A stretch of DNA of 64,000 nt from Deuterostichococcus epilithicus. Its lineage: Eukaryota > Chlorophyta > Trebouxiophyceae > Prasiolales > Stichococcaceae. The notes beneath the pieces were generated by a model, which saw nothing but the letters and a program-made list of their open reading frames with translations, had not been told where the DNA came from and searched no databases. Within the stretch, counting starts at the first letter, position 1, and each line of letters opens with the position of its first letter. The stretch covers positions 2,170,001 through 2,234,000 of the forward strand of contig JAVTLE010000013.1 in the NCBI GenBank assembly GCA_033439295.1, read 5' to 3'. Below, piece after piece: positions 14,500 to 59,109 of the stretch. Both the position numbers and the translations under genes were made by a program.

Positions 14500-14556
<57 letters not shown>

Positions 14557-26838: not shown

Positions 26839-27450
26839 CCCCTTCAGCCAGTTCTGAAGTAACTGTCAGGCTGACTGCTGCCGGAACGCGGTCGCTTCAA
26901 GTAGCATGCCTGGGTTGTGGTTCATGCGTGCCCGCATGGGTCAATTACGACGGGCAACGTGGGAAACACGACTTGGCAGTGCAAAGATACAGCAGCAATC
27001 TTCTCTGTTGTACGGCAGGCCCGGCGAGTTAACAGATGTGAAGAACCGGTCTGAAACTGTCCTGCAACTGCTGGATGGTGGGGATATCTTTCCAAAAACG
27101 GATTGTTGCGCAACCTCCCAGTAAATGCTCAATTGCTCCGTGTTATATTCACCAAGTGCCGTGAACTTGTTTCAGGCACTCGTGCGGAAACCTGACCAAG
27201 TCGGGGGATTGCATTCGGATCCACCAGCGCGCCAGCTGGAGCGCTGGTACTGGATCTTCCCAAGCAAAGCATGGGAAAGGGCGTGCTGACGTGTGAAATC
27301 CTAATTTCTTTAAATCTGCGCCACAGACAGTGTCGATGCGGCAATTTTTGCGAAACGCTGGCAGGCTGTGAGTATTCGTAGATACTGATACATTTCAAGG
27401 TGTCGAGTCTACTGGAATCTGGGGCTGATCAGGTCCAGGGCTTGATGAAC
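26839..27450. other. Intergenic region between methyltransferase gene and array 1
   Basis: It should hold the promoter of the minus-strand methyltransferase gene. It is more AT-rich than the flanking genes; no gene is recognised. Confidence 0.5.
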
Positions 27451-27476
27451 GGCAAACGCTGGCCATGTCCAGCGGT
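27451..27476 (+). repeat. Left flanking direct repeat of array 1 (26 bp)
   Basis: Identical over 26 bp to 28624-28649. It begins ggcaaacgctggccatgtcc and abuts the first repeat unit of the array. Confidence 0.93.
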
Positions 27477-28623
27477 TTACCCTTTAAAAAAGAACAGGCT
27501 GATAGGTAGCCCCGGGCGCCCTTCTGCCCTGTTCTTTTTTGAGTTTATTTTTAAAAGAGAAAGGTACGTAGGGCCCAGGCCCCTTTGAAAACGAACAGGC
27601 TGATAGGTAGCCCCGGGGCCCCTTCTGTCTCGTTCTTTTTTAAATGGGGGTAGCCCCGGGCCCCCTTCTGTCTTGTTCTTTTTCAAGTTCACTTTTAAAT
27701 TTAAAAGAGAACAGGCTGATAGGTAGCCCCGGGCACCCTTCTGTCTTGTTCGTTTCTATGTTCTCTTTCAAAAGAGAAAGGTACGTAGGGCCCAGGCCCC
27801 TTTGAAAAAGAACAGGCTCAGCCTGTCAGGCTGATAGGTAGCCCCGGGCACCCTTCTGTCCTGTTCTTTTTTAGATGGGGGTAGCCCCGGGCCCCCTTCT
27901 GCCCTGTTCTTTTTAAAATGGGGGTAGCCCCGGGCCCCCTTCTGTCTTGTTCTTTTTTAAGGTCTCTTTTAAAGAACAGGCTGATAGGTAGCCCCGGGCC
28001 CTCTTTTGTCTTGTTCTTTTTTCAAGTGCCTTTTTAGAAGAGAAAGGTACGTAGGGCCCAGGCCCCTTTGAAGAAGAACAGGCTGATAGGTAGCCCCGGG
28101 CACCCTTCTGCCCTGTTCTTTTTTAGATGGGGGTAGCCCCGGGCGCCCTTCTGTCCTGTTCTTTTTATGTTCTTTCTTATAAGAGAAAGGTACGTAGGGC
28201 CCAGGCCCCTTGAAAATAAGAACAGGCTGATAGGTAGCCCTGGGCACCCTTCTGCCCTGTTCTTTCTTGAATGGGGGTAGCCCCGGGGCCCCTTCTGTCC
28301 TGTGCTTTTTTCAGTTCTCTTTTAAAATGAAAGGCACGTAGAGCCCAGGCCCCTCTGCAAAAGAACGAGATAAGAGGTAGCCCCGGGCGCCCTTCTGCCC
28401 TGTTCTTGTTTAAGTGCTGTTTTAAAAGAGAAAGGTACGTAGAGCCCAGGCCCCTTTAAAAAAGCACAGGCAAATAGGTAGCCCCGGGCCCCCTTCTGCC
28501 CAGTTCTTTCTTAAAATGCCACGGTTTACTGGACACGACGGCTACCTTTCAACTTGTTCCTTTTTAAAGGGGGTTGGGCGCCCACACCTATAAGAAAGAA
28601 CAGGTTTAAAGGTAGCTGTGGCC
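27477..28623. repeat. Tandem-repeat array 1 of hairpin-forming roughly 100-bp units
   Basis: About 1.15 kb of degenerate tandem units. A unit reads: (A)nGAACAGG, 'ctgataggtagccccgggc', cccttctgt, CCTGTTC(T)n, a variable 'aagtgctcttttaaaagag' spacer, then 'aaaggtacgtagggcccagg' and cccctttg. GAACAGG and CCTGTTC pair, so each unit can fold. The 'ggtacgtag' mark recurs near 27563, 27780, 28046, 28189, 28333 (variant) and 28433. Extra short sub-units carrying only 'gggggtagccccgggcc' are interspersed. Both an 'acaggctgatagg' and an 'acgagataagagg' subtype occur. It lies between the methyltransferase and SEC14 genes. Confidence 0.93.
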
Positions 28624-28649
28624 GGCAAACGCTGGCCATGTCCAGCGGT
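28624..28649 (+). repeat. Right flanking direct repeat of array 1 (26 bp)
   Basis: Exact copy of 27451-27476, in the same orientation, directly after the last repeat-derived sequence. Confidence 0.93.
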
Positions 28650-41255: not shown

Positions 41256-41274
41256 ATGCCGGCCCTGTACCCAT
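41256..41274 (+). repeat. Left flanking direct repeat of array 2 (19 bp)
   Basis: Matches 41844-41862 at 18 of 19 positions. The repeated word, atgccggccctgtacccat, is unrelated to the flank of array 1. Confidence 0.88.
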
Positions 41275-41843
41275 AGGGGCCAGGCCCCTTTAAAAAAGAA
41301 CGAGATAAGAGGTAGCCCCGGGCCCCCTTCTGCCCAGTTCTTCTTCAAGTTCTTTTTTAAATGAAAGGTACGTAGAGCCCAGGCCCTTTTTGAAAAAGAA
41401 CGAGATAAGAGGTGGCCCCGGGCGCCCTTCTGCCCCGTTCTTTTTCAAGTGCTTTTTCAAAAGAAAAAGGTACGTAGGGCCCAGGCCCCTTAAAAAAGGA
41501 ACGAGGTAAGAGGTAGCCCCGGGCACCCTTCTGCCCTGTTCTTTTTCAAGTGCTTTTTCGAAAGAGAAAGGTACGTAGAGCCCAGGCCCTTTAAAAAAGA
41601 ACAGGCTGATAGGTAGCCCCGGGCCCCCTCTGCCCAGTTCTGTTTTAAGGTATTTTTGAAACGAAAGGTACGTAGAGCTCAGGCCCCTTTTAAAACAGAA
41701 CGGGATAAGAGGTAGCCCCGGGCGCCCTTCTGCCCCGTTCTTTTCCAAGTGCTTTTTCAAAAGAGAAAGGTACGTAGAGCCCAGGCCCCCTTTTGAAAAG
41801 ATCCCGGGCGCCCGTTCTTTTTTAAGTGCCTTTTAAAACGAGA
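41275..41843. repeat. Tandem-repeat array 2, same family as array 1
   Basis: At least five units with 'ggtacgtag' near 41367, 41469, 41570, 41667 and 41769, giving periods of 97-102 bp. Units carry the same parts as array 1 in the same orientation. Most are of the 'acgagataagagg' subtype, with one 'acaggctgatagg'. The minus strand is open for 156 codons (41290-41760) with a repeating GRPGLP/GPGATSYL-type pattern, probably fortuitous. It occupies the gap between the divergent PsbP-like and IBR5-like genes. Confidence 0.93.
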
Positions 41844-41862
41844 ATGCCGGCCCTGTAGCCAT
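41844..41862 (+). repeat. Right flanking direct repeat of array 2 (19 bp)
   Basis: Same orientation as 41256-41274, one mismatch, directly following the last repeat-derived sequence. Confidence 0.88.
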
Positions 41863-56127: not shown

Positions 56128-59109
56128 CAGCTGGCGCCGCTTGGCAGAGGGCGTGAGCTCTGCATCGCCCGCCGCCCTGACTTTGGCGCCCGGCCGCCGG
56201 GCCGCTGCGCCGCCGCCACGCCCAAACACATGCTTGCCGCCGCCGCCATCAGGCCAGGAGCCGCCGCTGCAGACGGTGGACGCATCATTCTCCGAGTCGC
56301 CGGCCGAAAAGGCGTCGGCAAACGCCAGGCGCTGCAGATGCTTGCGGGTGAGCGCCGCGGGCGCCTTGCCAGCGAGCCGCGGCACCCCTGTGGGCGCCCG
56401 CCTCTCGCCCAGCACGCCGCGTGTCTGCAGCAGATATGAAGCACCATTGGCCACTTCTGTCAAGCATGAGCGGCAGCATGGGCGGCGGCACGCTACAGAC
56501 CCAGGAGGCATGCCGATTCGCATAACAGGAATGGCCTCTTGACCCTCGGAACAGGAGCCGCATTGTCATGGGCTGGTTGCACCGAGGCAGGCAATCGTGA
56601 ACAAAACAGCGTGCCTGCGCTGCGATGCCAGACGCTGGCTTCCCTTCCTGCTGCTCTGCACTCGGTGCGTCGCCTGCCCCAGCGGCTCCCACTGCAGCTG
56701 CCAGCACGGGGTGTTGTGCTGCAGCCACACACGCAGGCAGCGCCTTGAGCGGCGAGGGAGAGGCGAGCGCCTCCAATGCCGTGGCAGACGCCCGGCTTGA
56801 AGCGGCCGCCTCGGCGCAAGCCGCTGCCTTGCCCGTGGCTGCTTCAGAAAGGCCGCCCTGGAGCGCTTTGAGTCGATGCAGCGCAGTCGGTGGCGCGACG
56901 AGCTGCAAGTCGCCTGCGGGCACCCGCAAGGGACTGCTCATCGACAGCGCGCCCTGGTTGCTAAGAGGGACCGGCGCCGGCAGCGGCAGCGCAGCCGGTG
57001 CTGGCGTCGCCTGCACCTGCCGCTGCTGCAGCTGCACCCGCAACGCTGCTGCAGTGAGCATGCCGGCCGGGCGGGCCACCACCACCGCCTGCTGGCACGC
57101 CACTGCTGCATGCGGCGCCGCGCCAGCCGCAGCCGCTGCAGCGCCGCCCGCTGGCGCAGCGCCGGCAGCGGCCTGAGCGCCGGCGGCCGCAGCGGCAGCC
57201 CAGCGTCGGCTCCCACCTCTGGGTTCTGCTCCGCGGCCGCTGAGGCGCCCGCAGGCATGAGTTCTGTGACAACTGCCGCCGGCTCTGCAGCACTGATGCT
57301 GTTGACCAGGGCCGGATCGCTGGCCGCATTGCCGCTGTGGCGGCCGTGCCTAGTAGGGTGCGCGCCCTTCCGCGCGCGGGCGGACCCCGCCACGCCGGCT
57401 GCGGCGCGGCCTGCGCCCGCAAACTTCACGCGTAGCGGCGTCGTTGGCAGCGAGAAGGGCAGGGGCGACAGCGGCAGCGCCGCCGGGCTGCAGCCGGCCA
57501 GGCGCAGCGGGCTGAGCACCGCATCCACCTCCGCGGCGGCGGCGGCGCGCCGCTTGAGGATGCTGGTCTGGCCGCCACCGACAGCCTTGCGGGCGGACGC
57601 CGCCTGGTGCGCGGCGCGCATGAGCTCTCCCGGCTGCGCACGGCTCTTCCTGGGCCCTGCACGCCGCGCAGCACAACCGGCTCGGCAGTTAGAGGGTCGT
57701 TATGTGCCGCAGCCTCAGCAGTTGCCTTTTCTTGCAGTTTGTGAAGCTGTGCAGGCGGGAGTTGCGAGGTGAATTTTCGCACCAGAAGACCGGCGCCCAG
57801 TCGATCCCCCAGAGCGCAGCAGGACGCTCTTCGGCCGTCCACGCCGCGCCGCTGCCGCCCGCTTCCGCGCGGTCTCCGCCGCCAGGGCAGCAGCCGGCGT
57901 CGCCTGCCGCGGCGTGCGCGCCACCACCAAGCCAATTGGCGCCGCCGCTGGCATGGACTGCGGCGCCTGAGGCGCCGGCGTGACCTCCGCTGCCGGCATG
58001 AAACCCCGCCCTGGCGTCACAGCTGGCGCCGCCGCTGTGGCCGCCTCAGACGGCGCGATGTGCACGCCGCCTGAAGCTGCGGCCCAGCTGGCAGTGGCCG
58101 CGGCTGCCGCCAGCGGTCCGGCACCCGTGCAGGCGGCGCCGTGCATGGACACGCGCTGGTACAGCGCGGCCGGGATGTGGCAGCCGTCCGGCGATGTTTC
58201 ACAGGCCATGGGCTGCTGCGGCTGCACGAAGGCGCCGGCCTGGCAGCCGTCGGCGCTCAGTCGCGCGGCGGGCGTCAGCGGCGACCGGCGCGCCGCCCTG
58301 CCAAGGCCCAGGCACGCCGCCGCACGGCGGGCGAGCTTTGCAAGCCGCCCGCTGCGGCGCTGCGGCAGCGCGGGCCGCTCGGCGGCGGCGGCGGCGGCGC
58401 GCCTGCGGCGGCCGCTGCCGATGGCCAGTGGCGAGAAGGCCAGGTCGGCAACGCCGGGGTGCATTGCCGCTGGGGTGGCGTAATTGTCCGCCGCGCGCGC
58501 AAAAATGTCGACTGCCGCCGCCGAGGTGTGCCGCGCCGGCTTGGCAGCAGAGCCGTCTGCGCAGGCGCGACGGACCGCGGCCGGCTGGTATGCCGCCGTC
58601 GGGTCGTCCAGCTCAACTGCTGCAGCCGCGTCATGCTCGCCTGGCGCATCGCGGCGGCGCTTGGGGCGAGGGCTCCAGCTGCCCGGCGTCGCGCTGGCGG
58701 CAGCGGGCGTGCGGTGGGAACCGCACGGCGGGCTGTCCTGTTCCATGTCGCTTGCGTCCGAGTAGTTGCACCGGGCATGTTGCTGCGCAGCTGTTGCCCG
58801 GGACCTCTGCACATTGTGTCAGAAATCATTTCAGCATGCAACAGACGATCAATGCTGCCGCGTGGACACGAGCCAACACCTTCAGCAACTTGAGTCCCGA
58901 CCGTGAGGTTGCACAGCCGTTGTCCCCTCCGGCAAGCTGTACCTCAAGCTGGACACGCAGGGCACACCGGCAGCCATGTGTGGCTTGGCGCGGCAAACAA
59001 GTAGCCGGAGAAGACAGCACGGATGCCGCGGACTCACCGGAGCACCACCTGCCGCACGCTCCAGCCGTCGCAGAATGACGCCGGCGTCCCTGAAGCTCGT
59101 TCGCCGCAT
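56128..59109 (-). CDS. Ala-rich protein with SP/TP sites and an RVxF motif; function unknown (3' end not located)
   Basis: The start exon (59109-59038) encodes MRRTSFRDAGVILRRLERAA and ends at a strong CCG|GTGAGT donor. It joins an acceptor at 58806, in phase, to an Ala/Arg/Pro-rich exon (SRATAAQQHARCNYSDASDM, PQRRSGRLAKLARRAAACLG). The next exon begins PRKSRAQPGELMRAAHQAAS (near 57650) and contains TSILKRRAAAAAEVDAVLSP, then SPLPFSLPTTPLRVKFAG. Later segments are GALSMSSPLRVPAGDLQL (near 56930), SPSPLKALPACV, and LTRKHLQRLAFADAFSAGDS (near 56330) to TPSAKRRQLVS, ending at a donor at 56127. Multiple Ser/Thr-Pro sites and RVKF (the PP1-docking pattern) suggest a phospho-regulated nuclear or mitotic protein; this is inference only. 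No domain is recognised. Confidence 0.55.

Follow-up and report, generated by a model that had tools for sequence, protein, structure and literature searches.

How a tandem array of hairpin-forming units came to lie between two copies of one short sequence is the question raised by this locus. The window, that is the whole 64,000-nt stretch analysed (positions 2170001-2234000 of contig C11 in a 46.8-Mb, 21-contig genome that, by its organelle contigs, split genes and Zepp-like pattern, looks like that of a green alga), carries two such arrays, C11a and C11b (Table 1). The preliminary description had placed the first of them between perfect direct repeats distinct from its unit, and this was borne out: the flanks of C11a form a perfect 27-bp direct repeat, CGGCAAACGCTGGCCATGTCCAGCGGT, with a start-to-start distance of 1173 bp, and the repeat is not part of the array unit. 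Its extent had to be corrected, as it measures 27 bp from position 27450 and not 26 bp from 27451. With as many as 3 mismatches allowed, no third copy was found in the window (0 expected, 100 shuffles). Across the 46.8-Mb genome the inner 22-mer occurs exactly twice without mismatch, and it has one further match, on C15, with 3 mismatches. As the 22-mer is otherwise absent within 2 mismatches, the flank is local sequence, and its being a dispersed repeat found independently of arrays, a reading that the preliminary description had set against insertion, is excluded.

C11a is built of imperfect palindromes measuring about 34, 43-50 and 67 bp, and its higher-order period is 144 bp; it begins mid-unit and finishes in a 108-bp terminal hairpin block. 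The predicted fold of the whole array has an MFE of -508.9 kcal/mol; the comparison with 25 first-order random sequences, made for the first 420 nt, gave a z of -4.8. C11b both starts and ends in unit fragments, and its flanks match at 18 of 19 positions, with just two genome copies at up to one mismatch.

Table 1 Positions of the arrays, their flanking repeats and internal landmarks. Positions refer to the window unless a contig is named.
Feature	Position	Strand	Basis or remark
Left 27-bp flanking direct repeat (target-site duplication) of C11a	27450..27476	+	sequence comparison
Array C11a, tandem imperfect-palindrome subunits, 1146 bp	27477..28622	+	
Two overlapping perfect quasi-palindromes, ACAGGCTCAGCCTGT and TCAGCCTGTCAGGCTGA, breaking a C11a unit	27812..27834	+	
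Distinct 3' terminal hairpin block of C11a	28515..28622	+	in full elsewhere only in C5b, 94%
Right 27-bp flanking direct repeat of C11a	28623..28649	+	sequence comparison
Left 19-bp flanking repeat of C11b, ATGCCGGCCCTGTACCCAT	41256..41274	+	
Array C11b, hairpin array, period ~100 bp	41275..41843	+	
Right 19-bp flanking repeat of C11b, ATGCCGGCCCTGTAGCCAT	41844..41862	+	one mismatch to left copy
Flanking repeat of C5a, 18/18	C5:1610930-1610947 and 1611584-1611601		

Searching the genome for the unit and aligning the flanks of every array, the check that had been proposed, disclosed eight arrays on six chromosomes (C3, C5 with two, C7, C9, C11 with two, and C12), three of them with flush duplications. 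The unit-core pattern gave 58 matches genome-wide at up to 3 mismatches, 57 of which fall within the eight arrays, the remaining one being isolated, with 3 mismatches, on C9. All 25 matches of a second core lie in seven of the eight arrays, with zero in C9; the count of eight rests on these two patterns, and arrays of greater divergence could escape it. Tandem units are present in every array: imperfect palindromes of about 50 and 43 bp are centred on GGTAGCCCCGGGC, a 34-bp unit is centred on GGTACGTAGGGCCCAGGCCCC, and the units are linked by A/T-rich spacers, several of them palindromic. When the opening stretch of every array, at most 420 nt long, was compared with its own set of 25 first-order random sequences, six of eight folded more strongly than random, with z from -2.4 to -4.8; C5b and C12 gave just -1.4 and -1.5. 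GC-rich fold-back palindromes occur in C11a alone among the eight, other perfect palindromes being A/T spacers, and no perfect palindromes were found in C5a, C7, C9 and C12. C3 holds an inverted unit piece at C3:1759641-1759676.

The best match of a window was its own array for 15 of 15 windows in C3, 12 of 17 in C12 and 8 of 21 in C11a (two ties included), and the C3 and C12 windows indicate that local expansion or homogenisation does occur within arrays. In this respect, tandem homologous units with homogenisation inside each array, the family is like a satellite or minisatellite. The best matches of the 21 C11a segments are scattered over C3, C5a, C5b, C9, C11b and C11a itself at about 85-98% identity and point to no single donor array. 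A non-hairpin block of about 110 bp is common to C12 (L084:3640-3760) and C9 (C9:649754-649862) at 90%, and no further place for it was found in the genome.

Candidate relatives elsewhere were rejected. A search of Rfam at E up to 1 returned six matches far under their gathering scores (the best, MIR2646, 30.5 bits vs 245), viral contigs searched with the 17-mer unit core gave nothing, and a 20-mer had one match in a Hyphomicrobium genome, which was isolated, lacked array context and was taken as chance. Judged by sequence against Rfam, viral contigs and prokaryote genomes, the hairpin-array family appears to be new. Among the literature matches listed, none was recognised as an account of green-algal tandem arrays or satellites bounded by target duplications, which does not prove absence.

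The flanks of all eight arrays were compared by an ungapped search on both sides, covering 400 bp outside and 120 bp inside each boundary. Flush flanking duplications were found in three arrays, C11a (27/27), C11b (18/19) and C5a (18/18), and that of C5a also has just two genome copies at up to one mismatch. The other five, C5b, C3, C7, C9 and C12, whose boundaries are approximate, showed no flush duplication; the best flank likeness of C5b, 13 of 14, lies about 300 bp beyond one end and was not counted. With the comparison narrowed to 100 bp outside and 8 bp inside, the flanks of C11a scored 27 against each other, those of C11b 16 and those of C5a 18, whereas the remaining five arrays gave 6-8; the best of 56 mismatched left-right pairings scored 10. 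A scan of 118,006 bp, made up of the window and seven fetched stretches, found three exact direct repeats of at least 18 bp lying 60-3000 bp apart outside the arrays: the flanks of C11a, the flanks of C5a and a GCG-rich pair at 57533/58385. The one mismatch of the C11b flanks puts them outside the exact criterion, and in the seven fetched stretches repeats with unit-like motifs were dropped, so that flanks with such motifs would have been missed there. First-order random sequence of window length held on average 0.35 repeats of at least 15 bp (20 trials).

On these grounds C11a, C11b and C5a were very probably each inserted as a module, leaving a target duplication. The preliminary description had proposed just this for C11a, and had named other arrays lacking flanking repeats as the finding that would speak against it; five of the eight do lack them and three possess them, flush and locally unique, so that the proposal is supported for these three and the mode of insertion may not be general. 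The five unflanked arrays may be old, truncated, or joined without duplication. The C11a flank repeat itself holds a 6-bp-stem hairpin, CGCTGG/CCAGCG, equalled or exceeded in 0.54% of 5000 random flank segments of matched length. The corresponding values were 98% for C11b and 16% for C5a, and a hairpin preference of the target was therefore rejected, the stem being unusual in C11a only.

The three duplication-bearing inserts have no common ends. The ends of the eight arrays, five of them with approximate boundaries, were read by eye, and neither poly(A) nor a shared tail was found in either orientation; inverted repeats were computed for C11a and C7, the ends of the other arrays being compared by eye. 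C5a starts with a foreign fragment and ends mid-hairpin. The first 42 bp of its insert, flush with the duplication, match C7:961712-961753 (L079:3713-3754) at 95%, within an open frame matching XPG_I (E 3.3e-17) and XPG_N, which we take to be EXO1-like. From a GT signal, the captured piece may span an exon-intron border. It lies antisense to the unit orientation of C5a, at the 5' side of the array. The same junction of gene piece and hairpin unit occurs in C5b, about 7 kb away, with 93% identity to C5a over 80 bp, so the compound predates the placement of at least one of the two arrays. The terminal block, the captured piece and the block of C9 and C12 were found nowhere in the genome outside the arrays, save in the C7 gene itself.

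The chromosomal surroundings of the arrays were also surveyed. Genome-wide, 64 RVT_1 matches were obtained at E up to 0.001, 62 of them over the cut-off and some in large open frames, and on 15 of contigs C1-C19 they are grouped, with at least two inside about 30 kb. The distance from array to group is 42.5 kb on C12, 48.7 kb on C7, 62.7 and 76.6 kb on C11, 97.0 kb on C9, 116 kb on C3, and 345 and 352 kb on C5. Fisher's combined p for this proximity is about 6e-4 with the nearer array of each chromosome and 7e-4 with the farther, values that are post hoc, as the densest group per contig was chosen, single RT matches elsewhere on C7, C9 and C12 were ignored, and the groups of C3, C11 and C12 comprise two RT matches each, those of C12 being perhaps two pieces of one element. 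The Zepp LINE clusters of Coccomyxa are described as strictly one per chromosome and probably centromeric (PMC3446292). As in that account, RVT_1 matches here group on many chromosomes with the arrays in their neighbourhood, the identity with Zepp being putative; unlike Zepp clusters as described there, the arrays consist of hairpin units, not of RT elements, and are found outside the groups, at distances of 42-352 kb. On this post hoc comparison the groups near the arrays are probably Zepp-like centromeres.

Closer by, C5a has in its neighbourhood an exon whose DnaJ match falls short of the curated cut-off; C5b adjoins an ankyrin-repeat exon, and an RRM exon is found near C12. Of nine frames scanned, three (L081:6335, that of C3, and window 42073) matched nothing. 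On our reading of splice signals, several arrays would be intronic. A degenerate second copy of the DnaJ-like exon start (ADKAAIRQTKRDK / ADEAAIRKAKRDK) was seen at about L081 5660-5875, just upstream of the other copy and near the C5a insertion. The window also includes a BTB-domain frame with three protein relatives at 50-64% identity, and a perfect GCA trinucleotide repeat of 18.7 copies at 14500-14555.

Two origins had been offered for the long duplication, patch-repair insertion and target-primed retrotransposition, and it is the former that is favoured here, though unproven. On balance it seems slightly more likely than not that the arrays came in as ectopic filler DNA when staggered breaks were repaired. 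Two nicks on opposite strands, about 27 bp apart at C11a and 18-19 bp apart at the other two sites, would have produced a staggered break, and fill-in of both overhangs would have duplicated the target. Filler taken from another hairpin-repeat array of the genome, by copying or by ligation, would then have closed the gap, and in one lineage it would have included the 42-bp piece of another gene. The donor would have been DNA and not RNA, and the hairpins may promote breakage or template switching. The quasi-palindromes of C11a may be a footprint of fold-back synthesis, and both they and the inverted unit piece of C3 look like the kind of mark that such synthesis leaves. Repair of this sort explains the variable duplication length, the arbitrary ends, the mixed filler and the fold-back marks together. 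On this view the arrays would form a small family dispersed over the genome, apparently near centromeres, that owes its spread to patch repair at the DNA level and not to a transposase or a dedicated reverse transcriptase.

Events of this kind are described in other systems. For rice, asymmetric nicks and end joining are invoked to explain insertions of 10-1000 bp that come with tandem duplications and draw on ectopic donors (review PMC7407515), and breaks whose 3' ends protrude are reported to be the preferred places of tandem duplication, an outcome put down to the filling in of both overhangs (PMC8355091). The arrays resemble the patch-mediated double-strand-break insertions of rice (Vaughn and Bennetzen 2014, as summarised in PMC7407515) in their direct target duplications of variable length (27/27, 18/19 and 18/18 in three of eight arrays), in ectopic, mixed filler, C5a joining a C7 gene piece to hairpin units, and in the lack of fixed ends. 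They differ from the insertions as summarised there in that the filler is repeatedly one hairpin-array family, reaches 1.15 kb and lies near putative centromeres (PMC7407515). This recurrence counts against break repair, since filler taken repeatedly from one family is not predicted by random repair unless the donor has some special property; best matches that single out no donor for C11a, and GC-rich fold-back palindromes seen in one array of eight, also count against it. Array movement is most likely a known outcome of repair in which the donor is unusual and recurrent.

Target-primed retrotransposition in trans, in which a LINE enzyme, Zepp-like or of another kind, would copy array RNA into DNA at a nicked target, as happens to SVA elements with LINE-1, was judged unlikely, although it accounts for part of the evidence. 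The duplications of LINE/SINE-type retroposons measure about 7-30 bp, and those of three of the eight arrays are likewise long and of variable length (18-27 bp); the genome has at least 64 RVT_1 matches, of which some lie in large open frames, and the arrays share chromosomes with the RT groups and lie near them. SVA VNTRs vary in repeat number, as the arrays do. SVA and LAVA elements also have long, variable target duplications and captured gene pieces, and in these composite VNTR retrotransposons, as here, a tandem-repeat block has been moved as a module. Unlike them, the arrays occupy only eight loci and have neither poly(A), nor a recognised SINE- or LINE-derived end, nor a fixed 3' end. 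No poly(A), simple-repeat tail or common 3' terminus appears in either orientation. The EXO1-like piece is antisense at the 5' side, where template jumping by a reverse transcriptase would be expected to give sense; were the RNA read in the opposite direction, the foreign piece would sit at the 3' end, where priming starts. That the terminal hairpin block, the captured gene piece and the block common to C9 and C12 turned up in the arrays and the C7 gene only may likewise count against this route. The differing ends, the missing poly(A) tail and the 42-bp foreign piece flush in C5a together favour break repair over target-primed retrotransposition.

A more far-reaching possibility, held only tentatively and considered rather improbable, is a new non-coding mobile module: a palindrome array with no transposase or RT partner, copied preferentially by virtue of its fold into staggered breaks of centromere regions, leaving 18-27 bp duplications and able to carry gene pieces. 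The compound junction that C5a and C5b share, moved as one, would be an instance of such carriage.

Growth in place, by slippage expansion after an existing 27-bp tandem duplication or hairpin seed had been split, is quite improbable as an account of the loci. The C3 and C12 windows that match their own array best (15/15 and 12/17) and the 6-bp-stem hairpin of the 27-bp repeat are in keeping with it. Against it, units of one family make up eight arrays spread over six chromosomes, so that a seed must first have been inserted, and duplication is seen at three flanks unrelated to one another.

That the arrays are a non-autonomous DNA transposon, or a foldback element ending in inverted termini, is very improbable. 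C11a has strong foldback potential and a near-terminal inverted repeat (27480-27511 / 28540-28571, 32 nt, 88% complementary), but the right arm stops 51 bp inside the insert, comparable inverted pairs join many internal units, and other copies were read as lacking these ends. At 27, 19 and 18 bp, the duplications are not short and differ in length, and this variation, with that of the ends, largely refutes the reading.

Least probable is insertion at breaks of organelle palindromic repeats, as in Volvox: short hairpin-unit families of this kind are described in noncoding organelle and nuclear DNA of that green alga, and the 34-69 bp units resemble chlorophyte organelle short palindromic repeats (PMC2670323), but the arrays, unlike the Volvox repeats as described there, are ordered in tandem, with target duplications and GC-rich cores, and they have no matches on organelle contigs (0 of 58 unit-core and 0 of 25 second-core matches on C20 or C21, up to 3 mismatches), so that both contigs were rejected as sources, present-day organelle DNA is an unlikely one, and a lost or strongly diverged donor is the only remainder. 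C20 is the mitochondrial contig (97,409 bp, with COX1) and C21 (211,271 bp) a putative plastid contig by size alone. The match to COX1 (C20:8186-12727) is split into three separate pieces, which makes introns in this gene probable.

How satellite-like arrays move between chromosomes is an open question, and in this genome a few of them are found with readable insertion scars, so that the question can be tested by comparison of strains. If hairpin arrays are favoured as filler at centromere-proximal breaks, the secondary structure of DNA would be tied to break repair and to the growth of the genome near centromeres.
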